64,000 nt of DNA, from positions 929,001 through 993,000 of the forward strand of contig JAQPZY010001256.1 of the NCBI GenBank assembly GCA_029931535.1. The letters run 5' to 3'. Positions 1 through 26,359 of the stretch are shown here, piece by piece; positions within the stretch are counted from its first letter, which is position 1; each line of letters opens with the position of its first letter. A program made the translations under genes and the position numbers. Source of the DNA: Margaritifera margaritifera (taxonomy: Eukaryota > Mollusca > Bivalvia > Unionida > Margaritiferidae). The notes under the pieces were generated by a model. That model was not told the DNA's origin. It worked only from the letters and a program-made list of their open reading frames with translations, and made no database searches.

Positions 1-30
1 AGAGAAGTAATCTTTTTCTAGAGATTGGGT

Positions 31-46
31 GGCCCTAAAAAGGACC
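31..46 (-). terminator. Histone-type 3' stem-loop for the leftmost gene
   Basis: On the minus strand GGTCCT-TTTT-AGGGCC forms a 6-bp stem (one U-G pair) with a 4-nt loop, followed directly by ACCCA. About 10 nt further on comes AGAAAAAGA (near 11-19), in the place of a histone downstream element. The hairpin begins 40 nt after the stop of the 86-520 gene, a spacing typical of replication-dependent histone mRNAs. A second inverted repeat (AAAGAAGTTT / AAACTTCTTT, about 57-88) lies between stop and hairpin. No AATAAA is seen here. Confidence 0.75.
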
Positions 47-85: not shown

Positions 86-520
86 TTAGGTAGATGTAGC
101 CGTGGCAGCTCCAGCAGGTCGGCCACGTTTAGCGATAGTGGGTGGTCTTACCGCTTTCAGACAGGCAGGTCTCTTTCTACTGAAAGTGAAAGCAAAATCA
201 TCGCAGTCAATCTTACATAAGACTTCACCGTCAAATTGCTTGCTGGATTGCTGCTGAAGAAGTTGTTGTTGCTGCTGTTGCTGTTGCTGCTGCTGCTGCT
301 GTCTTTGTTGCTGCTGCTGTTGCTGATGTAGACGTTGTCCTGCTTCCCATTCTGTTCTTTCTCTAAGTATTTCTTCTCTCATGACTTCTTCTACTAGATC
401 ATGAGCCATTTGAATGAACGTCATGGTCTTTCTCTCTGGGTTGGTCTCCATCAAATGATTCTTCACCCTCATTATGTTCACCATAGCTTCATTCAACTTT
501 GTAATCTTGGTGGCAGCCAT
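86..520 (-). CDS. Q-rich small protein with C-terminal AT-hook-like motif
   Basis: A 144-aa protein of unknown function. The N-terminal 60 residues are predicted helical and charged; a polyglutamine tract follows (about residues 65-90), then a basic tail with KRGRPAG, the RGRP core of an AT-hook that binds the minor groove of AT-rich DNA. This suggests a nuclear DNA-associated protein (inference). I use the ATG at 518-520; the open frame extends 16 codons upstream but only to a TTG. A TATA box (598-606) lies about 80 bp upstream. It is the outermost gene of the left end, reads outward, and ends in a histone-type stem-loop. The polyQ run may vary in length between copies. Confidence 0.7.
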   Translation of the reverse strand: MAATKITKLNEAMVNIMRVKNHLMETNPERKTMTFIQMAHDLVEEVMREEILRERTEWEAGQRLHQQQQQQQRQQQQQQQQQQQQQLLQQQSSKQFDGEVLCKIDCDDFAFTFSRKRPACLKAVRPPTIAKRGRPAGAATATST

Positions 521-597: not shown

Positions 598-634
598 CCT
601 TATATGCTTAACGCGCGGACGCGATGGAAAACAT
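598..634 (-). promoter_or_regulatory. TATA box plus GC-rich module shared with the right-end gene
   Basis: On the minus strand the order is GTTTTCCATCGCGTCCGCGC (613-634 area), a 6-7 nt spacer, then GCATATAAGGCGG (TATA, 598-606). The same module with one substitution in the GC-rich block stands before the rightmost plus-strand gene at 19,039-19,074. Nothing else in the element has it, so the two outermost genes seem co-regulated. The GCGC core is reminiscent of E2F-type sites, but that is inference. Confidence 0.7.
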
Positions 635-851
635 GGTAAGATTTTTTTCAGATGATCGACAGGGAGATCATAGATAGATAGAGAGGTTTTTTAGATCGAT
701 AGAAAGAGAGAGAAAAGAACATATTCATTATTTTTTTTCAAATTTCAATAAAAAACTACAGAACACCATTTTTTTTCAAACAATTCACAAAAAATGATAT
801 TTATTCAACAAAAACTATGTTAACAATTAACAAGTAACTATGAAATTTTTT
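635..851. other. AT-rich spacer with minus-strand poly(A) signal
   Basis: No gene is seen. Minus-strand AATAAA at 800-805 lies 47 nt after the protease stop and probably ends the transcripts of the capsid/protease block. The rest is T-rich and GATA-rich simple sequence between two minus-strand transcription units. Confidence 0.6.
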
Positions 852-2037: not shown

Positions 2038-3414
2038 CTAATAGTCTACAATGACTTCTCTCAAACTGTTGATCTCTAGAGTGTTATCAAACTCTGCAAA
2101 CAAGACGACGTTCACTGTCTGGGCTAGAGGTTGACCAAACTGAAGTTCCACACGAAGTGGTCCTGATTTTATAGGGTGGAAATGTCCTTCATCGCTACCT
2201 TGGTCCGGAGTGAAATCAAAGCCCCACAAGGCATACCCTCCTGCAAAATTCTCGTACGTAATACCGTGGCTACAGTCGCGGCTTAACTGTCCTGTGGCTT
2301 CAAACAGGCTCAAGTAAGATCGCAAGTAAGTTTTTGCGTTGGCGTCAAAGTCAGGTTCAAAAGGTCTGGTACACAAGGTCTTGCCATCTCGACTGACATC
2401 TAACTTGGTGACGTTAAAGTGCTGAAACTGGAACGGATTTTCATTGTAGACTCCATTGAAGGCTGCATTAGAAACCATACCAATGAATAAACGTTTAGGG
2501 AGCTGTCCTTGGAAGATGTGATCTTCGACTATGGATCGGAGTCCAGCGGCTGCAGTAAAGGTTTTCACTTCCACACGTCTAAGAGGATACTTAGCAGTGG
2601 TTCTGCTCAAGGATTGACTGATGTCGTTAGCTACTTTGGGTAAGATTTCTACACGTCGTACGTAAAGTTTGGCTTCTTGGATGATGGTTTTCCACTCGTT
2701 AGCATTAGCCATCAAATGGAAAGCGGCACTACTGCGATTCAGTCTCAGGCGTACATCAATTCCATTGAGTAAATACTTGTCTTGCAACCACATGTCCAAA
2801 TGTAAACGATCCATCAATTCTAAACTTCGCCCTCTGATTTTCTTTCGACGGTCGTTAAATCCCACATTGTGGGAGTCTGCTGGAGTTATATCTCTAACAA
2901 GATGACCCTGACCATCAGCAACAGCAGCAACCCTGGCCGGTACTGACAGTTCTGTGTCGTTGAACTTTTCCGAGGTGTCCGGTTTCCAGATCACTGAAGC
3001 ATCCAGATGACTGTTCTTAGCTTCTTTTCCATACGACAAGAGATTTTCCAAGTAAGCACGGTAAGGGTAAGTATCCAAACTGCTGCTGATCAGTTTGTTA
3101 TTCAAGTACAAATCTACTCCACTGAACAAAGAATGAAAAAAATTATTGACGGGAGCGACTCTGGAATCATCCGCAGGAAAGGTGTTGTCCGCCGTTTTCT
3201 TTACTTGAAGTTTCAGGTACAAGTAGGTGTTATTCAGATCGATGTAATCTTCGGTTTGTCCTTTGATTTCAAATTCGATAGGAGCTGAATCCGACAATGA
3301 CGATACAGGATGAAATTCTACCCATTGGGATTCTTGCATCGTCATCATGGTGGGACGCATAGAAAACAGTTCTAGTTCGGACTTGGTACATTCGCAAGAA
3401 TCTCGGTGCATCAT
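2038..3414 (-). CDS. MCP: Major capsid protein (hexon-like, double jelly-roll)
   Basis: A 458-aa protein resembling the Polinton major capsid protein, the family often auto-labelled F54H12.2-like in invertebrate genomes. Supporting features: an N-terminal SQWVEFHPVSSL segment, then IEFEIKGQTEDYIDLNNTYL, alternating beta-strand-like segments throughout, and YALWGFDFTPD near the C-terminus, all typical of this family. In the family, trimers of the double jelly-roll form the hexagonal capsomers of an icosahedral shell. I use the first ATG (3412-3414); the longer frame would start at TTG. It follows the 151-aa basic virion protein with a 10-bp overlap of its upstream frame extension only. Intact. 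Confidence 0.9.
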   Translation of the reverse strand: MMHRDSCECTKSELELFSMRPTMMTMQESQWVEFHPVSSLSDSAPIEFEIKGQTEDYIDLNNTYLYLKLQVKKTADNTFPADDSRVAPVNNFFHSLFSGVDLYLNNKLISSSLDTYPYRAYLENLLSYGKEAKNSHLDASVIWKPDTSEKFNDTELSVPARVAAVADGQGHLVRDITPADSHNVGFNDRRKKIRGRSLELMDRLHLDMWLQDKYLLNGIDVRLRLNRSSAAFHLMANANEWKTIIQEAKLYVRRVEILPKVANDISQSLSRTTAKYPLRRVEVKTFTAAAGLRSIVEDHIFQGQLPKRLFIGMVSNAAFNGVYNENPFQFQHFNVTKLDVSRDGKTLCTRPFEPDFDANAKTYLRSYLSLFEATGQLSRDCSHGITYENFAGGYALWGFDFTPDQGSDEGHFHPIKSGPLRVELQFGQPLAQTVNVVLFAEFDNTLEINSLREVIVDY

Positions 3415-5404: not shown

Positions 5405-6535
5405 CTACTTCTTTTTCTTTTTATAGTCGACGACTTGAGAAGCTGCAATCCAAGAATCAAAACTAGGAGGATATCCTTTCCAACGAACTTTGACTTCTTC
5501 TACTCGTCGTTTACCTACTTTGCGTGTTCTTTGTTCGAGAATGCTTTCGATGTCGTACAAGGTATCTTCTTTTTTAGTCACTCGTTGTAACTCAGGCAAG
5601 TAAAATGTTCCTTTGAGTACTTCACCGTTCATGTCTTCCAATTTATAGACGGGAGGATCACGTCCACGGACGGGGGTAGTGACACGAAACAATTCGGTAG
5701 TCCAGTTAGGTAAATAACCTTTGTCAAAAGTACGTTTGGTTTTTCCGATACGAACCCAATCTCCCGTCTTTAATAACTTCAACAAAGGTGTTTTCTTTTT
5801 CTTCTTTTTTTTGATCTGCTGGGGTGAACCAAATAATTTATCAAACACTGACACTTCGTTTTCAGGGCTGACCTCTTCGGGGGTACATCCAATACTACGA
5901 TGGTACGATTGATTGTACGCTTTGACCAAACGAGGTAACACGTCGATGTACTTGAGAGTATGTTGATGTGTAAAATATTTCCACATGCGTTCTTTCAAAG
6001 TTCTTTGAAAACGTTCCACGATACTGGCTTTGGTTTCAGGATTTTCGGTCGTAAAAAAATGAATGTGTCTTTGTTTCAATTCTTTTTGAAAAGCTTGGTT
6101 TAGAAATTCGGTACCTTTGTCCGTTTGCCATCGTAAAGGTTGACGTCCACTTTGTTTCAAGACCAATTTTAAGGCCCTTACCAATTCGGTACTGCTTTTA
6201 GAAGTCAAAGGTACGACCCAAGCAAATTTGGAAAACACATCAATGACACAAAACAAATATTTGTAACCACGATTGTAAGTAGCTAAATGAGAGACGTCCG
6301 CTAAATCGGCTTGCCATTGATGATCGATCCCTTCCACTTGAGTAGTACTTCTAGAAAATTTACGTCGAATGGGTTTGTGTAACGTGTACGTTGATTGTTC
6401 TTGTAACCATCGTCGTACTTCGGGTAAACGTACACTTTTCAATTGACTTTTAGCAGCTCGATATAATTTTTGAACTCCTCCGTAACCAGCAGCATGACCA
6501 GGATTGTAATAAATGTTAGCTAACAGTTTCTCCAT
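5405..6535 (-). CDS. INT: Retroviral-type DDE integrase with C-terminal chromodomain
   Basis: A 376-aa Polinton integrase that inserts the linear DNA into host chromosomes. The catalytic triad is visible: Asp77 in WQADLAD, Asp139 in QTDKGTEF, and Glu174 in ASIVER. The core spans about 70-230. A Lys-rich linker (about 240-250) precedes an SH3-like segment (TGDWVRIGK). A chromodomain occupies about 325-370 (YDIESILEQR, VRWKGYPPSFDSWIAA) and probably guides insertion to methylated histone. Only 6 bp separate it from the upstream gene, so they may share a transcript. The C-terminal DYKKKKK codons include TATAAAAA, which serves as the TATA box for the next gene. Intact. Confidence 0.95.
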   Translation of the reverse strand: MEKLLANIYYNPGHAAGYGGVQKLYRAAKSQLKSVRLPEVRRWLQEQSTYTLHKPIRRKFSRSTTQVEGIDHQWQADLADVSHLATYNRGYKYLFCVIDVFSKFAWVVPLTSKSSTELVRALKLVLKQSGRQPLRWQTDKGTEFLNQAFQKELKQRHIHFFTTENPETKASIVERFQRTLKERMWKYFTHQHTLKYIDVLPRLVKAYNQSYHRSIGCTPEEVSPENEVSVFDKLFGSPQQIKKKKKKKTPLLKLLKTGDWVRIGKTKRTFDKGYLPNWTTELFRVTTPVRGRDPPVYKLEDMNGEVLKGTFYLPELQRVTKKEDTLYDIESILEQRTRKVGKRRVEEVKVRWKGYPPSFDSWIAASQVVDYKKKKK

Positions 6536-10516: not shown

Positions 10517-11602
10517 TCACGAGTAGTAAAGTGATTTGAGACGTGCCGCCTCCTCTTTATAGGGATCGATGGCTAAGGTTGGTATCTTGGGTGGCATGTT
10601 TTTATAGCCAGGCTCCCAAGGTTGGTACCTTTTGAGACAGTCTCCTTCAGGATAGAAGTTGTGATAGAGGTTTCCCATGACCATTCTTCTATGCCCTTGA
10701 AAGAGGGTATAGCGTAAAAATCGAGAAATGACTTTGAGTTTACGTTTCACTTGAAATTTCACAAACTCTCGGTAAATCTGTTCGCGCACATTCAAAGGCA
10801 TGACACTAATGTACTTGGGTAAAATTTCCGATTTGGAAAGAAATACTTCTCTTTTGTATTCTTCACGATACTGGTGATAGTCATTGTTCAGAATCAAATT
10901 TCTGATGCGACGAAAGTAGCCATAGCCTTGAAATCGAGGAATCACTTGAAGTTTACGTTTCACTTGAATTTGAACCAACTCATTGTAAATCCGTTTTTGC
11001 AACTTTGAAGGCAAGTCACGAATGCGATCTTGTAGAGTAGGTTTCTTGGTGACAAAATACTCACACACAAACCAAACGGAATCGGTAGGTAAAGGATATC
11101 TATAGGATCCAACACCAGTTTCAGTGATTATCCTATCTAATTTCAAAACACAAAAAGACGATTCGGCTTCAGGAGACAGTTCTTCTAACAGTTTTTGGTA
11201 TTCGTCTATGTTAGTCACATTTTTTTCCTTCACTTCCTCCCATGGAATTCTATATTCCACTGCTACATTGTAGGTAGCCCCCACCAATGTCTTAAATTGG
11301 GGATGTAGATTTTCATCAATGTCTGACCATTTGAATATCTTCTTAGCTATCATTTGTCTTATTGTATTCAAATACCATTGGTTACAACAAGTCTGTCGTA
11401 AAGGATGTAACTCTTTTTTACGTTTCAGTTGAATGTGAACAAATTCTTGGTAAATCCGTTCTCGTAACTCCAAAGGTAATCCACGAATACGATCTTCTAA
11501 AGTAGGAATATACTGAAAAATACGTTCTTGTAACTCTAAAGGTAAACCACAAATAAGTTCATCTAAAGAAGAAGAATTATTCTTCTCCTTTTCCTCCTCC
11601 AT
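10517..11602 (-). CDS. Multi-repeat protein with F-box-like motifs
   Basis: A 361-aa protein with about four copies of a repeat of the form LPxELxxRIYxEFVxIQxKRK. They lie near residues 17-35 (ICGLPLELQERIFQYI), 36-65, 200-225 (IRDLPSKLQKRIYNEL) and 265-295 (ISVMPLNVREQIYREF). The LPxELxxxI core is that of an F-box, which recruits substrates to SCF ubiquitin ligases, but four copies in one protein are unusual. A central RIPW-EEY-EL segment is shared with the broken ORF downstream. I use the ATG at 11,600-11,602, 4 nt after the BIR gene's stop; an upstream ATG (11,630-11,632) would overlap that gene by 26 nt. Function unknown. Confidence 0.65.
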   Translation of the reverse strand: MEEEKEKNNSSSLDELICGLPLELQERIFQYIPTLEDRIRGLPLELRERIYQEFVHIQLKRKKELHPLRQTCCNQWYLNTIRQMIAKKIFKWSDIDENLHPQFKTLVGATYNVAVEYRIPWEEVKEKNVTNIDEYQKLLEELSPEAESSFCVLKLDRIITETGVGSYRYPLPTDSVWFVCEYFVTKKPTLQDRIRDLPSKLQKRIYNELVQIQVKRKLQVIPRFQGYGYFRRIRNLILNNDYHQYREEYKREVFLSKSEILPKYISVMPLNVREQIYREFVKFQVKRKLKVISRFLRYTLFQGHRRMVMGNLYHNFYPEGDCLKRYQPWEPGYKNMPPKIPTLAIDPYKEEAARLKSLYYS

Positions 11603-11606
11603 TGTA

Positions 11607-12095
11607 TTACTTCTTCTTGTTATCTGGCTCATCGTACCCGTACTCTTCTAAGGCTACTAAAGGTAAGAAGTGACAGTGCGGAGACCATCTGGCATGTTCA
11701 ATGTAAGCTGAGTCGGTAGGCTCCCAATGGCGAAGTTCCACACCGCAACTAAAACATTGAACTTTATCTCCTTCTCCCGTGTATTTAAATCCAGATCTAG
11801 CTAAACTTTCCGGTTTAGGTCCTTCTAGATATTTTGGCCACTTGTCTTTGAATGACTCCAGTCGACTTTCATACTTGGAATAACCAAATAAAGTCACAGG
11901 TATTCTGATATGCCATTTAGGCTCCACATCATTCCTCTTGTTGTCATTAACGTCAATTCCTTTAGTATTTTTTCCACTGAAACATAAAGGACGATCTGCC
12001 TCTTTAGAGTTGGATCGACGGGGAGTGACTGAATCAAAGATGTCACAACGTACGGCATCGCACTCAAATTCCTCAAAACTGGAAAAAATACTCAT
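11607..12095 (-). CDS. BIR-domain (IAP-like) protein 2
   Basis: A 162-aa protein with one BIR domain (about 70-150): ESRLESFKDKWP, then LARSGFKYTGEGDKVQC, then the zinc ligands Cys114, Cys117, His134 and Cys141 (CX2CX16HX6C), with the typical WEP and WSPHC. No RING is present. BIR proteins of viruses block caspases or pro-apoptotic IAP antagonists. The first 60 residues are acidic and unrelated to BIR. Its ATG directly abuts the TAG of the other BIR gene. A TATA box (12,167-12,173) is embedded in the end of that gene. Probably an anti-apoptotic accessory gene arisen by tandem duplication. Confidence 0.88.
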   Translation of the reverse strand: MSIFSSFEEFECDAVRCDIFDSVTPRRSNSKEADRPLCFSGKNTKGIDVNDNKRNDVEPKWHIRIPVTLFGYSKYESRLESFKDKWPKYLEGPKPESLARSGFKYTGEGDKVQCFSCGVELRHWEPTDSAYIEHARWSPHCHFLPLVALEEYGYDEPDNKKK

Positions 12096-12479
12096 CTATT
12101 TTTTTTTCTTCTTGCTCGGTTCACGTGAAAAGTCAGAATGAAGGTTAGGTTTGGAAGGGGTTCCTTTTTTATACCTGTCGACTGAACCATCCGAAAAGTA
12201 TTGTAAGGTAATCCGTGGAAACGCCAAAGAAAGGTAAACACAGTTTGGTGACCATCTGGTATGTTCCACGATAGCTGAATCTTTAGGACTCATGCGAATG
12301 CTTGCACCACAACTGAAACATTTCACTAAACTTCCCTGTCCAAAGTAAACAAAACCTGCTCTGGCTAAAGAGATGGCTGTGGGTAATCGATCCCCTTTAG
12401 GCCAATTTTTGAACGTCTTCAATCGACTGTCACACTCAGCATAGTCAGGCAAAACCCATGTTGTTGTTGTTGAAGACAT
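12096..12479 (-). CDS. BIR-domain (IAP-like) protein 1
   Basis: A 127-aa protein with one BIR domain (about 14-85): CDSRLKTFKNWP, SLARAGFVYFGQGSLVKC, zinc ligands Cys54, Cys57, His73 and Cys80. The spacing between the second Cys and His is 15, one shorter than usual, and the WEP of the groove is replaced by MSP, so the peptide-binding groove may differ from its neighbour. The Lys-rich tail contains RYKKGT, whose codons form TATAAAAAA, the TATA box of the next gene. Its own TATA (12,513-12,519) lies within the last codons of polymerase B. Sister copy of the 11607-12095 gene. Confidence 0.88.
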   Translation of the reverse strand: MSSTTTTWVLPDYAECDSRLKTFKNWPKGDRLPTAISLARAGFVYFGQGSLVKCFSCGASIRMSPKDSAIVEHTRWSPNCVYLSLAFPRITLQYFSDGSVDRYKKGTPSKPNLHSDFSREPSKKKKK

Positions 12480-12492
12480 CTTTTCTGTTTTT

Positions 12493-15400
12493 TCAAGAGG
12501 AGGGCTTCCTTTTTTTATACTTCTCCAAATCGGCGTGTCCGTAAGGTAAAGTAGTGTGATCTGGAAGTCTCACTCTTTTTTGGTACACGATACGATACAC
12601 TTTTTGAACAGGTCGAGTCACGATTTTATGATTTGGTAGGCGAACAATCTTGTGAGGTTCTAACGTGGCGACTTGAAAATCTTTCACTTGTCCAGACAAC
12701 AGAGCATTTTTTAAAACCTCAAAGTTCACGACTTGGTTAGTTCGATAGTTCAGAGTCAATCCTTTGACTTTACAGGAGGTGTGAAGTTGACCTTGAGGGT
12801 CTCGGTATCGGTACCCATAATTTTTAGGGCCACCGCTAGCAAAACTCAGGATGGTATCTTGAGGGTGCTCGTCTGTCCAGGCTCCTAATCGATCTCCTTG
12901 AATGGTAGGGTGGGGGTAACCGGGGCGATGAATGTAAATGCAACTGTCAGTATCGAAATACAGAACACGATCTCCCAAGACTTCTAATGCTTCGTCATAC
13001 AATTTCAAACGAGCATGAGCAGTCACGTAGGCGGCAATGACTACGTTACTAAACTTGTCAGGTTTCACAAACTTGGGTTCATCTTCAAAATTAACAATGA
13101 TCAAATCCTCACGGACGATTTCAACGTGCTTGACTAGAATACTTTTGTCGTCCACCAGTTTAAAGTAACGATAAGGATCGTCCACGTATTCCGTTTTGGG
13201 TAAGATCGTACGTTGAGCCATTTTTCCCCACAAACAATTCAACATCACTTTAGCAAACGATCTTTTTCCTTCATTTTTTTCTATGTCTTCTAAAGTGATG
13301 CCTTCGATGTCACGGTATTCTTCTTTGAATCGGACTTGGTCTTCGGGAGTTTGACACCACGAAGGATAACCACTAGCTTCTTGTTTCAGTTTAAGAAATT
13401 GGTTCACGTACCCCGAAAAAATGCCTGGATGATGAGTAGCGTCGTCCTTTTGGTATTGGGCTGTCGTTGGAAAGTGCCAAATTTCATACACATTCAATAA
13501 ACGGTATCCACGATCCAATGCCCGAAACAATTCGGCACTGACCCACGTTCCTATCATTGACCGTTCTTCCTCTGTGTGGTGACAGGAATGATCTTGGTTA
13601 CACATTTCGGCACACGTCCGACATAAAGGAAACATCAATTTTCCTTGACAATGGCAAGGTAAGATGGGATGAAACAAGTTTGTGGGAGGTAAAACTTTAC
13701 ATTTGATCAATCCTTCGTATTGACGAATCTGTTTTACGTCGATGTGCTCTGTTAAAATTTCAGGGTGTCCGGTAGGAAAACGAGCATATTTACACACCCA
13801 AGGATACAAAGAACACACGTCGATGTATTTGATTTCTTCTCCTTGGGATTCGTTCACGTCGTACAATAATCGAGTAGCATTGGTTCGTCCTCCAAATAAA
13901 CTGTGACGTGGATCTAAAGGTTCAATGTCGGCTGCGTCGTAACTTTGAGTGATGGTTTTAAATTCAGGATCGATTTTCAAACGTCGATCGTATTCGTGTT
14001 CCCACATTTCTACCACTTCGTAACCTTGACTTTCTAACTGAAGTCGTCGTTGACAAGTCTGTTCATATAACTGATCCATGGTAGAATCTGAATAAGGGCT
14101 TTTCATGTCTCGGACAGGATAACAAATAGGGCATCCGTGAAACAAACATCCCTGAAACTCATACACAATGTGTGGGTTTTCTAAATCCCAACCATCCACA
14201 GAATAACCTCCAATCTTTTTTTCTCCTCCTCCGTTTCTAGCATGTTGTATCCATTTGTCTTCTTTTTGACATAAGTAATGAAGCCAACGTAAAGCTTTGA
14301 CAGAATATTGACGACTAGCAAAAACCCCCGTGTTGGAGTCAATGATGGCGAGTTGGTTTTCGGGCATGAAATGTTGTCTGTAGACCAAGGAACAGGCTTT
14401 AGGTAAGGTGGATGCCTCTTTCAAAGGATCGACCTCTGCACTATCGAGAAATAACTCTCGAAATTTTCCACAACAACGTCTTAAAATATCTACATCCGAT
14501 CGACAATATTTGAGCATCTCTTCTTGAAAGTCAAAGGGATCGTTCTGGTGAACACGGTACCAAGCGTGAAAAGCTTCTCGCTGTTCGGGTCGCATTCCAT
14601 CGGGGTCATAATCATGAAGGTCAGGTAAATGAGGTAGGACGGCCTGTTGATTAGCTTCCGTGTTAAAGAAGTGAGGAAAGTAACCTTTGGCCATTTCTGT
14701 CATACCGAACGTTTTTGGCATGCGACTCAAAGGCATGGCCAAATAACTCATCGAATCTTTGAATTGAACTTGTCCTACTTTCATGTAGATGAGCTTTTTT
14801 CCATTCATGGTGACTTCAGGACGTTCGGTTCCATGGTTCAAATAATAATTAAGTAAAAACTGTCCATCGTATCCCGAAAAATTGTGAGCTATGACGGTCG
14901 CATACCGATGACAATCTCCGTAACGATGAATGTCTTCTTCGCTCCAACTGTCGTGGGTGGTAGGGTCTAAAACCCATTCAGCAAACTCCGACAAAGTATT
15001 CACTCCACGAAAGATTTTTTCACGTCCTCCTGGAATCCTACTACAATGAGGACAGTGAAAATGAATCGATTCTTGAATGCACTCATCACAAGCCCGATGG
15101 GCTACACAAAAATTAGGAATGTGAGTGCCTGTTTCTTGCATACATTCAAAATCAAAAAAGATGAAATCTACTTGTTTCTTGTTTTTCTTTATTTCTTTCT
15201 TCTCTATCTTGTCATGCTTTTGAATAAAACATCGATGATCAAAATCGACGATCTGATGACAAGTAGAACATTTTTTCTTGCCAGCACAAACGTGTCTCTT
15301 GGAGTTGTTGGAACGAATCAGTTGTCCACACGTAGAACACGATTGTAATAACTCACAAGCACATTTTTGTTGGTGTCGTCCTTGGGTCTTGCGATGTTGT

Positions 15401-16668
15401 TGGTAACAAGTAGGACTGACAAAACGGCGTCGACAGGTTTCACAATAAATGTGATGTTGTTGTGGCTCAGGAAGGCATGGTGGGTCGGCTAAACAGCCCC
15501 GACATCTTGCTCCACAAGTAATGTGTTTCTCCCGACTATTACACCCTTTGTTACATTTCTCACAGTAGTAAGAGTATCCCAAAAATCCAGTGATACTGGT
15601 AATGGTATCAAAATGTTCTTGATGGTGATAAAGATGAATGTATTTTCCCTCAGGAAAATTAGGGCCTCGAAACAATAGATCACCGCGCACTTCTTGAGGG
15701 TGAACTTTTAACGTATAATGAGGAGCCAAAACATCTTGAAGTTGCTGTAATTGAGAAATGCTACACACAGTCTCTTTAGGGATCCCTGCTTGTTTTAACA
15801 AGAGTTCTGCTTCTTTTCGTTGTTGGGGTCTTTGCGAATATTGAATGTTTTTCCAGGCTTTTTTCCATTCTTTGCTCTCGTTCTTGTTAGCATAGGTACG
15901 ACCCACCACAATAGCTCGAGCTAAGCACATTGAATCTTCAGTATTGTTAATTTGGACGACACTGTGTTTGGTAGTACGTAGATCATCCACCAATAAAGTT
16001 TTTCTGCTTCGTCCACTTCCTCGAGGTGGAGCAACATGGGTCATGTAAACGGTGGCCTTTCCATCGGTGATGGTAAATTTGTCATTGGATTGTTGTACAT
16101 GTTCTATTTTTGACATAACTTTGTCTGGCGTTAATTCTGCCGGGCTACTAAATTCAATCCAAACAGGACTCTTCAATTGGTCATGATGAATGGCTAGTCT
16201 CAACCGATCGTCTTCTTTGGCTCCACATTGCCGTTTTAAGTTCTGTAACACAGATTCCCACAAATTGGTAATGAACCGCGCCGCTTTCTCGGGAGGTACT
16301 TGAGACTTAAAGTCTTTGAAGTGTACTGTGTGAGTATACGCCGTGGTCCTAAATTTTCGAGAAGTGATTTTTTGTGTCTCTCGAATCCGATAGTAATTTT
16401 CAGGAGCCACGGTAGCGGTAGCGGTAGTAGTAGTAGGACTTTCTTGATCAGGGGTTCTGGTGTTGGTAGTAGTAGTGACTTTGGTTTTGGAAGTTTGGGT
16501 TTCAGGTTGTTGTTCACTCATTTCGTCTTCAAAGTCACTGGCATGGACTTGAGCCAGTAATTCCTCTAAGGGTGTTTCAGGAGGCACGGAATACCTTCGT
16601 CGCCGTGGCTTCTTGGTTTGTTCTTGTTCTGGTTCTGATTTATCATGGTTTGGGCGTGATCTTTTCAT
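12493..16668 (-). CDS. POLB: Protein-primed family B DNA polymerase
   Basis: A 1391-aa intact Polinton polymerase. Approximate residues: N-terminal disordered and basic; a Cys/His-rich zinc region at about 370-480 (CEKCNKGC, CGARCRGC, CETCRRRF, CSTCGQLI, CSTCHQIV). 3'-5' exonuclease motifs follow: FFDFEC (about 504), AHNFSGYDGQF (599), YCRSDVDIL (723). Polymerase motifs are DVCSLYPW (954), KVMLNCLWGK (1145), YFDTDS (1238) and KVKG (1302). It replicates the linear genome from a protein primer. I use the ATG at 16,666-16,668; the longer frame starts at GTG. A TATA box (16,716-16,724) lies about 50 bp upstream, within a divergent promoter shared with the CCHC gene. Confidence 0.97.
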   Translation of the reverse strand: MKRSRPNHDKSEPEQEQTKKPRRRRYSVPPETPLEELLAQVHASDFEDEMSEQQPETQTSKTKVTTTTNTRTPDQESPTTTTATATVAPENYYRIRETQKITSRKFRTTAYTHTVHFKDFKSQVPPEKAARFITNLWESVLQNLKRQCGAKEDDRLRLAIHHDQLKSPVWIEFSSPAELTPDKVMSKIEHVQQSNDKFTITDGKATVYMTHVAPPRGSGRSRKTLLVDDLRTTKHSVVQINNTEDSMCLARAIVVGRTYANKNESKEWKKAWKNIQYSQRPQQRKEAELLLKQAGIPKETVCSISQLQQLQDVLAPHYTLKVHPQEVRGDLLFRGPNFPEGKYIHLYHHQEHFDTITSITGFLGYSYYCEKCNKGCNSREKHITCGARCRGCLADPPCLPEPQQHHIYCETCRRRFVSPTCYQQHRKTQGRHQQKCACELLQSCSTCGQLIRSNNSKRHVCAGKKKCSTCHQIVDFDHRCFIQKHDKIEKKEIKKNKKQVDFIFFDFECMQETGTHIPNFCVAHRACDECIQESIHFHCPHCSRIPGGREKIFRGVNTLSEFAEWVLDPTTHDSWSEEDIHRYGDCHRYATVIAHNFSGYDGQFLLNYYLNHGTERPEVTMNGKKLIYMKVGQVQFKDSMSYLAMPLSRMPKTFGMTEMAKGYFPHFFNTEANQQAVLPHLPDLHDYDPDGMRPEQREAFHAWYRVHQNDPFDFQEEMLKYCRSDVDILRRCCGKFRELFLDSAEVDPLKEASTLPKACSLVYRQHFMPENQLAIIDSNTGVFASRQYSVKALRWLHYLCQKEDKWIQHARNGGGEKKIGGYSVDGWDLENPHIVYEFQGCLFHGCPICYPVRDMKSPYSDSTMDQLYEQTCQRRLQLESQGYEVVEMWEHEYDRRLKIDPEFKTITQSYDAADIEPLDPRHSLFGGRTNATRLLYDVNESQGEEIKYIDVCSLYPWVCKYARFPTGHPEILTEHIDVKQIRQYEGLIKCKVLPPTNLFHPILPCHCQGKLMFPLCRTCAEMCNQDHSCHHTEEERSMIGTWVSAELFRALDRGYRLLNVYEIWHFPTTAQYQKDDATHHPGIFSGYVNQFLKLKQEASGYPSWCQTPEDQVRFKEEYRDIEGITLEDIEKNEGKRSFAKVMLNCLWGKMAQRTILPKTEYVDDPYRYFKLVDDKSILVKHVEIVREDLIIVNFEDEPKFVKPDKFSNVVIAAYVTAHARLKLYDEALEVLGDRVLYFDTDSCIYIHRPGYPHPTIQGDRLGAWTDEHPQDTILSFASGGPKNYGYRYRDPQGQLHTSCKVKGLTLNYRTNQVVNFEVLKNALLSGQVKDFQVATLEPHKIVRLPNHKIVTRPVQKVYRIVYQKRVRLPDHTTLPYGHADLEKYKKRKPSS

Positions 16669-16799: not shown

Positions 16800-17306
16800 A
16801 TGATGGAAGAGTCAAAAAGACAGATTGCTTTTTTGGTGAGAGATTTACAAACAGTGATTAGAAAGTATACTACGTACAGTAAGAGTAAAGACTACTCCTC
16901 CTCCTCTGTCACTAGAGATAAAAGTGACGATACTTGTTACATCTGTCAAGAGAAAGGACATTGGGCACCAGATTGTCCCAAACGTGAACAGAAAAAGAGA
17001 GATAAAGGGAAAGATATCTGCTATCATTGTAAAGGACCAGGACATTGGTCTTCGGAATGCCCTCAGAAAGAACAAGAAGAAGAAGAGGAGAGGGAGGAAG
17101 TGGATTCAAAATTAACAAACCTAGAAGAAGAAGAAGAACATATCATCAAGAAAAGTAAGAAGAGAGTAAGAAGAATGGAAGACGAAAGTGAGAATGAAGA
17201 TGAAGAAAAGGAAAACAGGATTCCTATGAAGACGAAACACAAGAGAGACAGTGAGAAGGAAATTCCAGTGTTTCAATTCAAACCACACAAGCATTACAGA
17301 AAGTGA
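16800..17306 (+). CDS. CCHC zinc-knuckle protein (two knuckles)
   Basis: A 168-aa protein. Two CX2CX4HX4C knuckles: Cys46-Cys49-His54-Cys59 (CYICQEKGHWAPDC) and Cys74-Cys77-His82-Cys87 (CYHCKGPGHWSSEC), a fold that binds single-stranded nucleic acid. The rest is highly charged, Glu-rich then Lys/Arg-rich. Divergent to POLB, so a single-strand binding or replication role is plausible but not shown. I use the ATG at 16,800 (a second ATG follows at once); the longer frame starts at TTG. No canonical AATAAA or histone-type hairpin follows closely. Confidence 0.82.
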   Translation: MMEESKRQIAFLVRDLQTVIRKYTTYSKSKDYSSSSVTRDKSDDTCYICQEKGHWAPDCPKREQKKRDKGKDICYHCKGPGHWSSECPQKEQEEEEEREEVDSKLTNLEEEEEHIIKKSKKRVRRMEDESENEDEEKENRIPMKTKHKRDSEKEIPVFQFKPHKHYRK

Positions 17307-17558: not shown

Positions 17559-17577
17559 TCTTTTCTAGAAATCTGGG

Positions 17578-17593
17578 GGCCCTTAAAAGGACC
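17578..17593 (-). terminator. Histone-type 3' stem-loop for the 17637-18311 gene
   Basis: On the minus strand GGTCCT-TTTA-AGGGCC (6-bp stem with one U-G pair, 4-nt loop) is followed by CCCAG and, some 10 nt later, AGAAAAGAAA. It begins 43 nt after the stop codon. The 5' flank CCCAAC is the same as at the 31-46 hairpin. A weaker inverted repeat (GTTTTTTG / CAAAAAAC) lies between stop and hairpin. Confidence 0.7.
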
Positions 17594-17636
17594 GTTGGGT
17601 TGTTTTTGTTTTTTGGTTTTCAAAAAACAAAACTTT

Positions 17637-18311
17637 TCAAATTAACTTCAAATGCCGTAGTCCTTTACCACGGCCCAATCCATATCCTGTTAATGCTGCT
17701 GCTACTGATGGTGTTTTCATTATGGTGGTAGTCACTGGTGGTGGTGGTGATATTGGTGACATGGGTGGTGGTGGTGGTGGTGGTGGCATCTCACTAGCAC
17801 TGGAAGGTTTAGAAGAAGAATGTTGTTTAGCCCGTGATGGTCTTTTCCGTTTAGGTGGTTGATGAGTTAAAGAATACTTATAGAAATTAGTCATCCATTT
17901 CAACTCATATAATACCTCTTCTAACAGACTTACAGTTCTTTCTTGAAGACTGATGCTTTCCATTCCTGTTTCCTTCTTCTTCTCCTCCTCTTGTAACTGC
18001 TGCTGCTGCTGCTGTCTGATTTCTTCTTCTTCTTTCTGTTGTTGTTGAAGAAGAAGAAACATTTCTTCCTCTTCCCGTTGCTTTTTGACAAAATTTTCCA
18101 TCTCTTCCATTTGTCTTCTTTTAAAATCATTCACTATTGGAACAGTAGTAGCAGTAGTAGTAGTAGTAGTAGTAGTAGTATTGTCAAACTCTTGATTTAG
18201 TAAATCTAACTCAAAGTCTTCCGGCCGAAAGTTCAATATTGCCGCAGCATTCATTATCGTTGCAGGATCACTCCAATACATTGATGTAGTACTTGTCTTT
18301 CCAGTCTCCAT
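17637..18311 (-). CDS. Low-complexity nuclear-type protein, function unknown
   Basis: A 224-aa protein. The N-terminus (1-45) has a FRPEDFELDLL acidic/hydrophobic stretch resembling an activation segment. A Thr run, a coiled-coil region very rich in Gln/Glu (about 65-115), a short conserved-looking helix (about 120-150), PPKRKRPSRAK (a likely nuclear localisation signal), and Pro runs follow. No known domain is recognised; a transcriptional regulator is possible. The ATG is at 18,309-18,311. Its promoter has a TATA (18,362-18,367), a CRE (TGACGTCA) and a CCAAT box, and the transcript ends in a histone-type stem-loop. Confidence 0.65.
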   Translation of the reverse strand: METGKTSTTSMYWSDPATIMNAAAILNFRPEDFELDLLNQEFDNTTTTTTTTTATTVPIVNDFKRRQMEEMENFVKKQREEEEMFLLLQQQQKEEEEIRQQQQQQLQEEEKKKETGMESISLQERTVSLLEEVLYELKWMTNFYKYSLTHQPPKRKRPSRAKQHSSSKPSSASEMPPPPPPPPMSPISPPPPVTTTIMKTPSVAAALTGYGLGRGKGLRHLKLI

Positions 18312-18361
18312 GAAGGCTGTCGAAAAAAGTAATAAACCCCCCCTACGAACGCTACGATACC

Positions 18362-18490
18362 TTTATACCCGAGATGACGTCACACCTCCGCTTTCTTCCC
18401 ATTGGAAGAAAAACCGAACCGACTTGTAACACGTGTTTGGATTGGTAGTTAATTTGGATCCATTTCAATCCGATCGTAAGGTATATATAC
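18362..18490. promoter_or_regulatory. Bidirectional promoter with CRE, CCAAT, E-box and two TATA boxes
   Basis: For the minus gene: CCAAT (18,411-18,415), palindromic CRE TGACGTCA (18,375-18,382) and TATAAAGG (18,362-18,367 core), in the correct order. For the plus gene: E-box CACGTG (18,430-18,435), ATTGG, and TATATATA (18,482-18,489). The two outward genes it serves both end in histone-type stem-loops. CCAAT plus TATA is also common in histone promoters, though not specific. Confidence 0.65.
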
Positions 18491-18554
18491 AACCGCTCGT
18501 TTCATAAATGCTTCACCGGTTTTCTCCAAGACGACCAATCCTAAAAACAAAATC

Positions 18555-18791
18555 ATGTGGGTTAGTGTAGAATCCTCCAACATTGTTTCAGGAATGCTGT
18601 TTAATCCAGCATTCCTGATGTATGTAAAAGTATCATGGACTAAAACCAAAATTACGGATACAGCTACATGGTATCGACAAACTTATGTGGAGAGACAAGG
18701 TTGTCTAAAGAGGGTTTTACTGTATGGACCCGAAGTTAGAAGAAGTTTAAGAAGAAAAAGAAAACCCTCTAGGAGATGCTCCTGTTGTTAA
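18555..18791 (+). CDS. Small protein with strongly basic Cys-ending tail
   Basis: A 78-aa ORF lying between a TATA box (18,482) and a histone-type stem-loop (18,822), which supports it as the coding part of a short mRNA. It has mixed beta/helix-like N-terminal residues, then RRSLRRKRKPSRRC, a likely nuclear or nucleic-acid binding tail. A 20-codon upstream ORF (ATG at 18,508, near the expected start site) overlaps its ATG and could limit translation. An antisense frame (18,449-18,649) is also open, so the identity is uncertain. Confidence 0.5.
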   Translation: MWVSVESSNIVSGMLFNPAFLMYVKVSWTKTKITDTATWYRQTYVERQGCLKRVLLYGPEVRRSLRRKRKPSRRCSCC

Positions 18792-18821
18792 AAAAAAAAA
18801 CAACAACAATAACAAAAAAAA

Positions 18822-18857
18822 GGTCCTTTTTAGGGCCACCCATTTTTCAAGAAAAGA
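18822..18857 (+). terminator. Histone-type 3' stem-loop and downstream element
   Basis: GGTCCT-TTTT-AGGGCC (18,822-18,837) followed by ACCCA (18,838-18,842) and CAAGAAAAGA (18,848-18,857). Order and spacing match histone pre-mRNA 3' ends. It stands 31 nt after the stop of the 78-aa ORF. Confidence 0.8.
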
Positions 18858-19038
18858 TTAATTATTTATCAATATTGCCTATATAAGTGTGTGTTTTTTT
18901 ATATGTTGTGTGTATATATTTTTTTGTGATAGTCTACCCCTCAAACAAAAAAACCTTCTCCCTTATATGTTTTGTGTGGTGTGAGTTTGATATAGAAAAA
19001 AGGATAGTGTGGTGTGGTTTTTTTGGAAAAAAAGGGGG

Positions 19039-19074
19039 ATGTTTTCCATCACGTCCGCGCTTCTTGCATATAAA
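19039..19074 (+). promoter_or_regulatory. Promoter module shared with the leftmost gene, plus TATA box
   Basis: GTTTTCCATCACGTCCGCGC (19,041-19,060) is followed by GCATATAAA (19,066-19,074). It matches the 598-634 minus-strand module over 19 of 20 bases, with a similar distance to TATA. It precedes the 19125-19670 gene by about 50 bp. Confidence 0.7.
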
Positions 19075-19124
19075 CCGGTGCCTTCCACAGTAGCGCCATT
19101 CACACTTTTTTTCACTCTTCAAGA

Positions 19125-19670
19125 ATGCTTGACATTATTGACAATCTACAGGAAGCCTGGGACTGGATGGTGGAAGTGAAGTATTATATGGAGAAAAGGA
19201 TGTGGTGGTATCCAGTCAGTTGGAAGTGGGTAATCCATCACTTTACCTACATTAATTTGATTTTAAATTTAATTCAAGAAGTGAAGAAGGAGGAGGAAGT
19301 TAAGAAGAGTAACAACTCCTCCTCTTCTTCACCTTGTCGAGTAGGACTTCTTAAAGAAGTCTTGGATTACATCCAAAAATTGGATGATCATTTAAAATGT
19401 ATCATCCTTACTCGACAAGAAGCGGCCCTGCTCAGAGTAGAAACTATTATTAAAAAAATTTTGGAACAGGAGGTCGCTAAAATCAAATTAATGTGGGTAA
19501 AGGGGAAAAGAGAAAAACAATTCAATCGTCTGAACTTGAACTGGATGAAAATTCAGGACAAGTTCAGACAATTGAATCATCCCGACTGGATACCTGAAAA
19601 GAAGAAGGAGGAGAAGAAGAAGTTCCACCTCCCAGGCTTTCTCACTCAATGTTGGAGAGGAAATAAATAA
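19125..19670 (+). CDS. Helical charged protein of the right end, function unknown
   Basis: A 181-aa protein, helical throughout. It is Trp-rich at the N-terminus (WDWMVEV, RMWWYPVSWKW), followed by a Lys/Glu/Ser linker (about 54-70) and long amphipathic helices (about 73-155) that may form a coiled coil. No known domain is recognised. The ATG at 19,125 is about 55 bp after a TATA box and within a short mRNA ending in a perfect histone-type stem-loop. It is the outermost gene of the right end and shares its promoter module with the outermost gene of the left end. Confidence 0.7.
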   Translation: MLDIIDNLQEAWDWMVEVKYYMEKRMWWYPVSWKWVIHHFTYINLILNLIQEVKKEEEVKKSNNSSSSSPCRVGLLKEVLDYIQKLDDHLKCIILTRQEAALLRVETIIKKILEQEVAKIKLMWVKGKREKQFNRLNLNWMKIQDKFRQLNHPDWIPEKKKEEKKKFHLPGFLTQCWRGNK

Positions 19671-19700
19671 AAGCTCTTCCTACCAAAACAAAAAACCAAC

Positions 19701-19734
19701 GGTCCTTCTCAGGACCACCCTTTTTCAAGAAAGA
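19701..19734 (+). terminator. Perfect histone-type 3' stem-loop with canonical downstream element
   Basis: GGTCCT-TCTC-AGGACC (19,701-19,716) is a fully paired 6-bp stem with a 4-nt loop. ACCC follows, and CAAGAAAGA (19,726-19,734) is the textbook histone downstream element that pairs with U7 snRNA. It lies 30 nt after the stop codon. This is the best of the four copies. Confidence 0.85.
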
Positions 19735-19777
19735 TTAATTCTATTTCCCTCCCTCCCGTTGTCCCTATAGAGATCCC

Positions 19778-19962
19778 CGCCATGTTAAACTCCCGTAAAG
19801 GCATATAGTGCCCCCGCCATGTTAAACTCCCGTAAAGGCATATAGTGCCCCCGCCATGTTAAACTCCCGTAAAGGCATATAGTGCCCCCGCCATGTTAAA
19901 CTCCCGTAAAGGCATATAGTGCCCCCGCCATGTTAAACTCCCGTAAAGGCATATAGTGCCCC
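19778..19962. repeat. Subterminal 37-bp tandem repeat, 5 copies
   Basis: Five nearly identical 37-bp units, each starting CGCCATGTTAAACTCCCG and containing GGCATATAGTG. A partial copy with GGCATATATA follows at about 19,967. The array is between the last gene and the inferred right terminus, so it may be part of the terminal inverted repeat. GCCATGTT fits the YY1 consensus GCCATNTT, giving five evenly spaced possible sites; a role as origin, enhancer or integrase-binding region is speculative. Confidence 0.85.
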
Positions 19963-19995
19963 CTTTTGGCATATATACCCCCCCTCAACTACTCA

Positions 19996-21780
19996 CCATC
20001 ATAAGGCGTCACTGTGTTATGATTCCCTTGGACAACACGTCGATGGTAGCATACATCAAGCGTCAAGGAAGTACACATGTTCCTTCTCTTTGCGTGGTAG
20101 TCTGGAATCTCCTCTGATGGGCAATCTCCTCGGACATCACTCAGAGTGAGCCATATTCCATGCAAAAGGAATATCCTGGCGGGATGCCTGTCTATACGGG
20201 TCGTGTGGTCCTCACGGAATGGTCTCTGCACGAGTCGGTAGCAGAGTAACTTTTTCAACCGGGGGAAGACCAGAAGAGGACTTGTTTGCTACGAGACTGA
20301 ACTACTGGCACCATCTTTATGTCTCTCCAGCACCAGACCACCTGGCTGGTGGTCTCTTTTAGTGTGAAGTGGGATCGTCAGTACGTTGACGCCTCCCCAC
20401 CTTTCGGTAATTCCGCGGGTTTTCCACCAAGTCAGGATCTCTACGTCTCTGCTCATCCGGATAGACGGGCCCCAACGGTCGTGGTTCAACAATTTACTCG
20501 GCCTGTTGGAAGACTGGCCCAGGAGATTACTATCGAGTAGAGATCTGCTGTCGCAGCACAGAGGATCTCTACTACACAGCAATCCACAGATTATTCACCT
20601 TCACGCTTGGCTCATATCTAACAATCGATCCGCGAATGCCAGTTTTCAAGCAAGGTCACCAACTGCATCACTCAGGCTAGGATGCAGTCTGTTTCTAAGT
20701 CTATGATGCAAAGTGGAGGATATTCTGTAATTGATGCAATAGAAAACGTGTTGATCCTAGCTCTCCCCATTAATTTCAGTTTGCAGACTTTCTTATCTTC
20801 CTTTTCAAGAAAAGAGAATGTTCAGTATCTACCATTAAGAGCGATATGGCAGCCCTTTCTAATATTCTAGTACTCTATGGGTTCAGCCACTGGTGCGGAT
20901 CCTCACCTTTCAGATCTCGTGATGTATTTTGAACTTCAGAGACTGGTTTCTCGCTCACTAATGCCTGGATGGAACCTTTCGCATGTTCTTTGGGCGTTAT
21001 CTAAACCCCCTTATGAACCTTTTAATGGAAGCTTCCTTCGAGAACCTTACCCTTCACACAGTTTTCATCCTCTCCTTAGCATCATTGAGGAAAAAGAGTG
21101 AAATCCACGCCTTGTCTGTGGAAAAGGGTTGTTTACAGTTCAGTGGTTTTGGCTAAAAAAATCAGCTACCTTCAGTAGCTCCTGTTCCTAGTGAGATTTC
21201 CCAGTACCAGTGGTATCTGTGCTGGGGATGACCAAGATAGGCTCGTTTGCCCAGTCAGGGATCTAGGGTATTATTTGGCCTTCTCTACAAGGAGAATAAA
21301 AATTCGGAATAGTCTCTTTCTTCCTCTCAAGGTTTCCTCTGATATTTCTGAGGTCACCATTTCCAGGTTGATTGTCCTCACTATCATGATAGCTTATCAA
21401 TCCCTCACTGTGACGGAGTTTTCTTGTATGTGATTTAAAGCCCATGACGTTAGGGCTTTTGCTGCATCTTGGTCCTACTTGAATCACTCCTCTTTGGATG
21501 ATGTCATGTGAGCATCCGTCTGGCGATCGCACTCTGCCTTTTCATCCTTTACCTTCGTTCTTTGGCGCAACAGAGCGAAGGCAATTATTCCTTGGGTCCA
21601 TTTGTGACAGCGCAACATGTGTCGAAACCATCTACCAGTTTGCAGTAGGAAACACACATGCAGTAAGAGTAAGTGCATTTTTCTTATACCAGTTGTTTTT
21701 GAGGCCATCCTCCTCCCTCCTAACTGGTAAATTCAGCAATGCAGTAATAGCAGCTAATGTATCACTGCTATTAAAATGAT
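19996..21780 (+). mobile_element. Decayed DIRS-type retrotransposon (RNase H and tyrosine recombinase part)
   Basis: Reading the plus strand in shifting frames gives DLFATRLN and YVSPAPD (about 20,275-20,330), as at the end of DIRS RNase H. Then comes MPGWNLSHVLWALSKPPYEP with SLREP-like residues (about 20,960-21,050), and a CPVRDLGYYL segment and a HDVRAFA-like segment with SLDDVM (about 21,250-21,510) of the DIRS tyrosine recombinase. Many stops and frameshifts show decay. A long T-run and G-run follow. The Polinton abuts or was inserted into it. Confidence 0.75.
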
Positions 21781-25902: not shown

Positions 25903-26355
25903 TTTTGACACCGATGCCATGTCTCGCTGTCCTTCACGTCAGTGTTGACCCTACGCTTCCATATCTCGCTGTCCTTCACGTCAGTGTTGACCCTACGCTG
26001 CCATGTCTCGCTGTCCTTCACGTCAGTGTTGACCCTACGCTTCCATATCTCGCTGTCCTTCACGTCAGTGTTGAACCTACGCTGCCATGTATCGCTGTCC
26101 TTCACGTCAGTGTTGAACATACGCTGCCATGTCTCGCTGTTCTTCACGTCAGTGTTGAACCTACGCTGCCATGTCTCGCTGTCCTTCACGTCAGTGTTGA
26201 CCCTACGCTGCCATGTCTCGCTGTCCTTCACGTCAGTGTTGACCCTACGCTGCCATGTCTCGCTGTCCTTCACGTCAGTGTTGACTCTACGCTTCCATAT
26301 CTCGCTGTCCTTCACGTCAGTGTTGAACCTACGCTGCCATGTCTCGCTGTCTGTT
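25903..26355. repeat. 42-bp minisatellite, about 10-11 copies
   Basis: Units of the type CTTCACGTCAGTGTTGACCC followed by TACGCTGCCATGTCTCGCTGTC, 42 bp long. Because 42 is a multiple of three, several frames on both strands stay open through the array; these are consequences of the repeat length, not evidence for a gene. Confidence 0.92.
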
Positions 26356-26359
26356 AAAG

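Follow-up and report, generated by a model that had tools for sequence, protein, structure and literature searches.

The window analysed here comprises 64,000 nucleotides (nt) of DNA from the bivalve Margaritifera margaritifera (contig JAQPZY010001256.1, positions 929,001 to 993,000 of the forward strand) and carries most of a 21.2-kb Polinton/Maverick, a virus-like DNA transposon. We put at about 85% the probability that this element uses the S-phase histone programme of its host at the 3′ ends, and partly at the promoters, of five genes that do not encode histones, named g0 to g4. The study covers one host species. Loci outside the window are cited by L numbers, and coordinates given for L015 lie in the left flank of the window. 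In animals, the SLBP/U7 route of mRNA 3′-end formation is generally regarded as reserved for replication-dependent histones.

Histone-Type 3′ Ends in the Window

The genes concerned and their 3′ signals are as follows.

L015 9301-9038 (-): g0, 87 amino acids, 0.7-1 kb left of the window start; hairpin from 9009 (-)
86-520 (-): g1, 144 amino acids, helical and polyglutamine-containing with a basic tail
31-46 (-): g1 stem-loop, GGUCCU-UUUU-AGGGCC
11-21 (-): g1 purine-rich downstream element, CTAGAAAAAGA
17637-18311 (-): g2, 224 amino acids
17578-17593 (-): g2 stem-loop, GGUCCU-UUUA-AGGGCC, then CCCAG
17559-17568 (-): g2 purine-rich downstream element, CTAGAAAAGA
18555-18791 (+): g3, 78 amino acids, very basic (isoelectric point 10.4)
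18822-18837 (+): g3 stem-loop, GGUCCU-UUUU-AGGGCC, then ACCCA
18848-18857 (+): g3 purine-rich downstream element, CAAGAAAAGA
19125-19670 (+): g4, 181 amino acids, basic; helical in a low-confidence model
19701-19716 (+): g4 stem-loop, GGUCCU-UCUC-AGGACC, then ACCCT
19726-19734 (+): g4 purine-rich downstream element, CAAGAAAGA

A preliminary description of this DNA had proposed four hairpins with purine-rich elements, 30-43 nt after the stop codons of four genes, in the order known from histone pre-mRNAs. All four hairpins lie where it placed them, with gaps to the stop codon of 39, 43, 30 and 30 nt for g1 to g4, and the order of hairpin, ACCCA (CCCAG at g2) and purine-rich element about 10 nt beyond the stem-loop was recovered, both signals being carried also by the H3 and H4 genes of the host. 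The number of genes has to be raised to at least five, as g0 lies left of the window. Scored with the Rfam model of the histone 3′ stem-loop (RF00032), as had been suggested, all four sites gave matches in a covariance-model search, two of them above the gathering score of 34 bits: g3 at 18817-18862 (+) with 35.8 bits and g4 at 19696-19740 (+) with 35.2 bits (E values over all Rfam 3.4e-7 and 5.4e-7). These two stem-loops are the sole above-cut-off matches of any Rfam family within the 64 kb, and the window scan gave no RF00032 match near the ends of the polymerase B, integrase or capsid genes. The relaxed pattern GGYYYTTHTNARRRCCACC, allowing up to two mismatches, matches the window four times at 0.31 expected, a number reached by none of 100 shuffles. 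Between the g2 stop codon and its hairpin (17594-17636, (-)) lies an AT-rich inverted repeat, the outline of which is kept across copies L083-L102 while its letters vary.

Recurrence of the 3′ Ends in Element Copies

In the 2.45-Gb assembly of the host, the exact pattern GGTCCTNNNNAGGRCCACC was found 4,171 times (2024 + 2147), compared with 37 matches (23 + 14) of the reversed pattern used as control. Many of about 100 places listed are ordered (-)(-), then 16-20 kb, then (+)(+), as expected of Polinton ends. Among the stretches examined, i.e., the window's left flank and 39 others around places with the motif, five gene families recur upstream of the hairpins. Single genomic sites were considered as host histone genes and rejected, the upstream open reading frame showing a histone signature in none of 19; 15 of these sites adjoin recognisable Polinton genes and four (L021, L024, L031, L032) adjoin none that could be named. 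In a tblastn survey of motif-picked loci (L007-L054 and the window) counting distinct 3′ flanks, the hairpin was present behind g0 in 17/20, g1 in 17/18, g2 in 15/16, g3 in 13/15 and g4 in 9/10, altogether 71/79, and in 0/9 flanks of the element's CCHC zinc-knuckle gene, which served as control. Where present, it starts 12-46 nt past the stop codon, and a purine-rich element follows on its 3′ side in 70 of the 71 flanks; of the eight negative flanks, some differ by one or two altered bases and others have lost the hairpin. Because these loci had been picked with the motif, 28 g0-g4 flanks lacking the exact seed pattern were inspected separately, and 20 of them hold another form of the hairpin. 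In an RF00032 scan of 20 other element-end stretches, of the kind suggested for other Polintons, 20 above-cut-off matches were obtained, distributed over 17 of the stretches and reaching 41.6 bits.

Copies were also chosen blind to the hairpin, with the CCHC gene as bait, and 150 of 11,155 first-look candidates were scored. These CCHC copies are 90-100% identical to that of the window and all but seven are free of inner stops, so the family looks young. Among the 150, the g2 end carries the hairpin and CTAGAAAAGA in all 20 copies read. For g3 and g4, ten plus-strand copies were read, most of them closely similar to that of the window; the hairpin is present in 10/10 g3 ends and 6/10 g4 ends. 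A near-identical subfamily with a five-base g4 loop comprises L044 and L109-L111.

The search pattern fixed most stem letters and limited loop position 1 to C or T, and the invariance of the stem therefore means little. Of 96 rows, 22 had no gene label and were left out, many having been read from the wrong strand; among the 73 distinct sites, 72 have T at loop position 1, 71 have T at position 3, and all 73 have AA ahead of the stem. Position 3 and AA are kept though the search did not require either. In a set of 23 sites (21 from the element, 2 from the host), hand-picked to be diverse, stem pair 3 is C-G, U-G or U-A, with both sides changed in 7 of 22 distinct rows; pair 4 shows two non-pairing cells, and the score was reached by 9 of 500 shuffles.

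Likeness to Host Histone Genes and U7 Candidates

Of 645 candidates from a histone search, 150 were scored, and these include host histone clusters with repeats of about 8 kb. The 3′ ends of host H3 and H4 read GGCCCTTTTTAGGGCC or GGCCCTTTTAAGGGCC, ACACA, and then CAAGAAAAGA, CATGAAAAGA, CTCGAAAAGA or CTAGAGAAGA, the hairpin starting 28-35 nt past the stop codon; hairpins were found in 4/5 distinct H3 flanks and 3/3 distinct H4 flanks. Of 20 host histone loci, 11 were scanned with RF00032, and 10 of these gave 15 matches scoring 34.4-40.6 bits. Stem-loops are also described in histone mRNAs of the bivalve Lucina pectinata (PMC6210712). Host H4 has CTAGAGAAGA at a spacing like that of the g1 downstream element, and beyond the hairpin the g1 flanks resemble the host flank better than all 200 letter shuffles in 17/17 cases. 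The g2 and g3 flanks resemble it less, several g0 and g4 flanks do so no better than shuffles, and the purine-rich element itself accounts for part of the likeness. This likeness to H3 and H4 suggests that a histone 3′ flank was probably captured and then spread among the genes of the element.

In the search for the U7 small nuclear RNA (snRNA), no host candidate exceeded the Rfam cut-off. The candidate that pairs best with the element, L078, has ATCTTTTC ahead of an Sm-like site AAGTTTCTCTAG, and its 5′ end shows better pairing to the Polinton's downstream elements than to shuffled flanks; control flanks of the CCHC gene, for which a longer stretch was used, reach -6.1 as well, and U7 pairing of the downstream elements is only suggestive. 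The top-scoring candidate, L075 (29.4 bits), fits the element flanks poorly and was set aside, as were L077 and L080, all three fitting these flanks less well than L078. As far as sequence can speak to it, the SLBP/U7 reading is supported by the RF00032 matches, by the order and placement of the signals, by their likeness to the host and by their conservation across subfamilies.

Promoters

The promoter features of the window copy are the following.

614-620 (-): g1 GTCCGCG box, 16 nt before TATA in box-bearing copies
19053-19059 (+): g4 GTCCGCG box
19069-19074 (+): g4 TATAAA
19096-19101 (+): g4 CCATTC
L015 9514-9497 (-): g0 distal box; the proximal g0 box of this copy reads GTCCGCA

Within the window, GTCCGCG occurs in the promoters of g1 and g4 only. 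Across copies it was found within 200 nt upstream of g0 in 12/19, of g1 in 13/16 and of g4 in 22/25, with 0.01-0.16 expected, and within the same distance in 0/12 g2, 0/17 g3 and 0/9 CCHC copies; its spacing to TATA is 14 nt in g0 and 16 nt in g1 and g4, in all but one of 47. All three distinct host H4 promoters contain GTCCGCG within GGTCCGCGC, 21-23 nt before TATA. Four host H3 promoters have no such box but CCATTC, and a site resembling the latter is present in 23/25 g4, 8/16 g1 and 1/19 g0 copies. When 350 nt upstream were read, a distal box, GGTCCGCG, was found about 204-226 nt before the start codon in 16/19 g0 copies, and elsewhere in 0/16 g1, 0/12 g2, 0/17 g3, 3/27 g4 and 0/8 CCHC copies. 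It equals TTTCTTTTAGGTCCGCGC, a stretch of 18 bases that is letter-identical to one in the host H4 promoter and that was found in 18 Polinton and 9 host histone loci and nowhere else in the 436 kb compared, which are a non-random sample; five further histone loci carry it with one base altered. The clearest indication of a takeover of H4 promoter sequence is the TTTCTTTTAGGTCCGCGC of g0. The HiNF-P site contains GTCCGC. According to a review (PMC5706932), HiNF-P binds a promoter element specific to H4 and brings in NPAT at G1/S. The H4-like promoter pieces are a further reason to expect S-phase control. In the divergent g2/g3 promoter region (18311-18555), TGACGTCA lies upstream in 12/12 distinct g2 and 17/17 distinct g3 copies, and it is also present at g0.

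Proteins Encoded by the Five Genes

The proteins of g0, g1, g3 and g4 are basic, which would in part suit DNA binding, and that of g2 is not. A database homology search found no relatives of the g1 and g4 proteins. That none of the genes encodes a histone, as the preliminary description held, agrees with Pfam, which gave no histone-domain match in g1, g2 or g4; g1 or g4 as a hidden histone is likewise unsupported, single-sequence models showing helices only, for g4 at low confidence. The polyglutamine part of g1 has a weak, sub-threshold Pfam match to TFIIA. The g0 protein ends in SCPACRAKPGRC, which is common to the two subfamilies compared.

Proposed Mechanism and Alternative Explanations

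We propose that g0 to g4, near both ends of the element, finish with a stem-loop, ACCCA and a possible U7 snRNA-pairing element, and that host SLBP and the U7 ribonucleoprotein would cut their pre-mRNAs just past the stem-loop. The products would be tail-less mRNAs whose stability and translation would fall mainly in S phase. Given the GTCCGC box near TATA in g0, g1 and g4 and the H4-promoter stretch of g0, transcription is probably tied to G1/S. The likely outcome would be that terminal proteins, possibly DNA-binding or regulatory, are made during host replication. The wider proposal, that the element mimics an H4-type promoter box, TATA and an SLBP/U7 3′ end and so joins the S-phase histone regulon of the host to time its replication proteins, we consider somewhat better than an even bet, and the element perhaps even enters the histone locus body.

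Several observations weigh against this interpretation. In the window, g1 (51-6, (-); 31.6 bits, E 1.2e-5) and g2 (17598-17553, (-); 23.5 bits, E 0.012) stay below the RF00032 cut-off, and so do 26 of the 46 sense-strand hairpins in the 20 element-end stretches, of which the other 20 pass it. The g2 site lacks the usual ACC 3′ of the stem, and g2 and g3 are without the H4-like box. Among the ten g4 ends chosen blind, three, belonging to one subfamily, have a loop enlarged to five bases by an extra T, to which SLBP may bind poorly; one other is unrelated in sequence. The g4 stop codon is overlapped by AATAAA (AATAAATAAA), where polyadenylation is possible; AATAAA within 160 nt downstream was found in 2 of 18 other genes, and the contrast with polyadenylated genes is weak. 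The U7 candidate L078, at 25.7 bits, does not reach the Rfam cut-off, and host H3 is paired better by L077 and L080. Furthermore, of six distant, partial relatives on contigs of metagenome-assembled genomes (MAGs), the five scanned with Rfam, from other hosts, gave no RF00032 match at E <= 1; the trait may therefore be specific to a lineage, with the reservation that the majority of these pieces are incomplete. A looser hairpin pattern, applied to all six, matched a single palindromic place, in L002 on both strands, without histone flanks.

Among the rival explanations, the one to which we give most room, while still holding it doubtful, is that the genes use both types of 3′ end, with tail-less mRNA while cells divide and poly(A) mRNA at other times. 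Histone mRNAs of animals can carry poly(A) tails where cells are not dividing, and AATAAATAAA at the g4 stop codon would provide a signal for this; against it, neither AATAAA nor ATTAAA occurs in the 160 nt after g2 and g3 or in the 85 nt read after g1. We regard it as improbable that a captured histone 3′ flank merely spread with the element and no longer works, the genes relying on poly(A) sites. The likeness of the g1 flanks to host H3/H4 beyond the hairpin would agree with such a relic, as would the AATAAA over the g4 stop, the five-base loop of the g4 subfamily and the damaged hairpins of some copies. The hairpin letters, however, are nearly fixed while the flanks vary, stem pair 3 changes on both sides, and the hairpin stands behind five different genes.

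It seems less probable still that the hairpins serve the transposon as DNA elements, such as ends, replication signals or packaging signals, rather than as signals for RNA 3′ ends. The two end groups of the preliminary description are present. The hairpins of g0 and g4 lie where the terminal inverted repeats end on their inner side, which would suit a DNA element and makes these two not independent within one element. On the other side, the g1, g2 and g3 hairpins of the window copy lie outside the repeats, the distance to the stop codon and the 3′ position of the purine-rich element are kept among genes as described above, and the host histone genes are arranged alike. Chance or a low-complexity artefact would be conceivable in 3′ regions that are AT-rich and repetitive; the shuffles and the E values of the two best sites speak against it, and given the excess over the reversed pattern genome-wide and the blind samples, we take it as refuted.

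The Polinton and Its Relatives

The element spans about 21.2 kb and begins 1.25 kb outside the window on its left side, as judged from the inverted repeats and the target duplication. It has the polymerase B, retroviral-type integrase, packaging ATPase, putative capsid gene, inverted repeats and target duplication by which Polintons are recognised; the length of the duplication, 6 bp, we take to be a Polinton/Maverick trait. An A32-type ATPase gene was identified with Pfam. Its further features are listed below.

L015 8745-8750 and window 19994-19999: 6-bp target duplication, CACCAT
L015 8751-9040: left terminal inverted repeat, outside the window, starting with AGTAGTTGA
19668-19993: right terminal inverted repeat, with 37-bp tandem units inside
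800-805 (-): AATAAA, about 46 nt past the last gene (852-1418) of the leftward block
2038-3414 (-): probable major capsid protein, 458 amino acids, 629 homologues at E <= 0.001
5405-6535 (-): integrase with chromodomain (Pfam rve and Chromo)
12493-16668 (-): DNA polymerase B, viral type (Pfam PF03175, 1.8e-37)
16800-17306 (+): CCHC zinc-knuckle gene (Pfam)

The product of 2038-3414 is presumed to be the major capsid protein on account of its F54H12.2-like homologues; the named ones among the best 120 of the 629 come from the bivalves Mercenaria, Ostrea, Crassostrea and Saccostrea and are all F54H12.2-like, with the exception of one MAG protein. Close relatives were sought in IMG/VR with the DNA polymerase, a capsid alignment and the motif CCAANGGYYCTTYTNAGRRCCACC, none of which gave a locus.

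The 37-bp tandem repeats within the inverted repeats occupy 19775-19963 of the window and L015 8784-8944. Two adjoining genes with BIR domains (inhibitor of apoptosis; Pfam) lie in the Polinton at 11607-12479 (-). A 371-amino-acid protein (10517-11632, (-)) has three to four LPLELxxRIYxEFV-like repeats, possibly F-box-like, and no Pfam family exceeded the cut-off for it. At 25914-26357 (+), an open frame consists of the short repeated unit LPCLAVLHVSVDPT, a minisatellite.

Significance and Comparison With Known Systems

If the proposed use of the histone programme is correct, this would be the first known mobile element, present in many young copies, to use the SLBP/U7 route for non-histone genes; the literature searched held no report of histone-type 3′ ends or of H4-like promoter boxes in Polintons, most subscription journals lying outside its coverage. 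It would offer naturally occurring SLBP/U7 substrates other than histone genes, and would point to a way in which Polintons couple their expression to the replication of host DNA. RNA sequencing of poly(A)-selected material may miss g0-g4 transcripts.

The element's signal shares with the metazoan histone mRNA 3′ end the six-pair stem, the U-rich four-base loop, CCAA before the stem and, in most element sites, ACCCA after it, and differs in following non-histone genes encoded by a transposon. With Polintons/Mavericks and adintoviruses, this element has in common polymerase B, integrase, ATPase, a probable capsid protein, repeats beginning with AG and the 6-bp duplication, and it is set apart by histone-type 3′ ends and H4-like promoter boxes at its terminal genes. 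Viral use of histone biology is also met in the giant viruses Marseilleviridae and Medusavirus, which encode histone proteins, while the Polinton would borrow control signals only. Finally, GTCCGCG ahead of TATA and the TTTCTTTTAGGTCCGCGC identical upstream of g0 recall animal H4 promoters with their HiNF-P site, here a predicted one; the arrangement differs in that the proximal box stands 14-16 nt before TATA in the element compared with 21-23 nt in host H4, and the identical stretch of g0 is distal, about 204-226 nt before the start codon.

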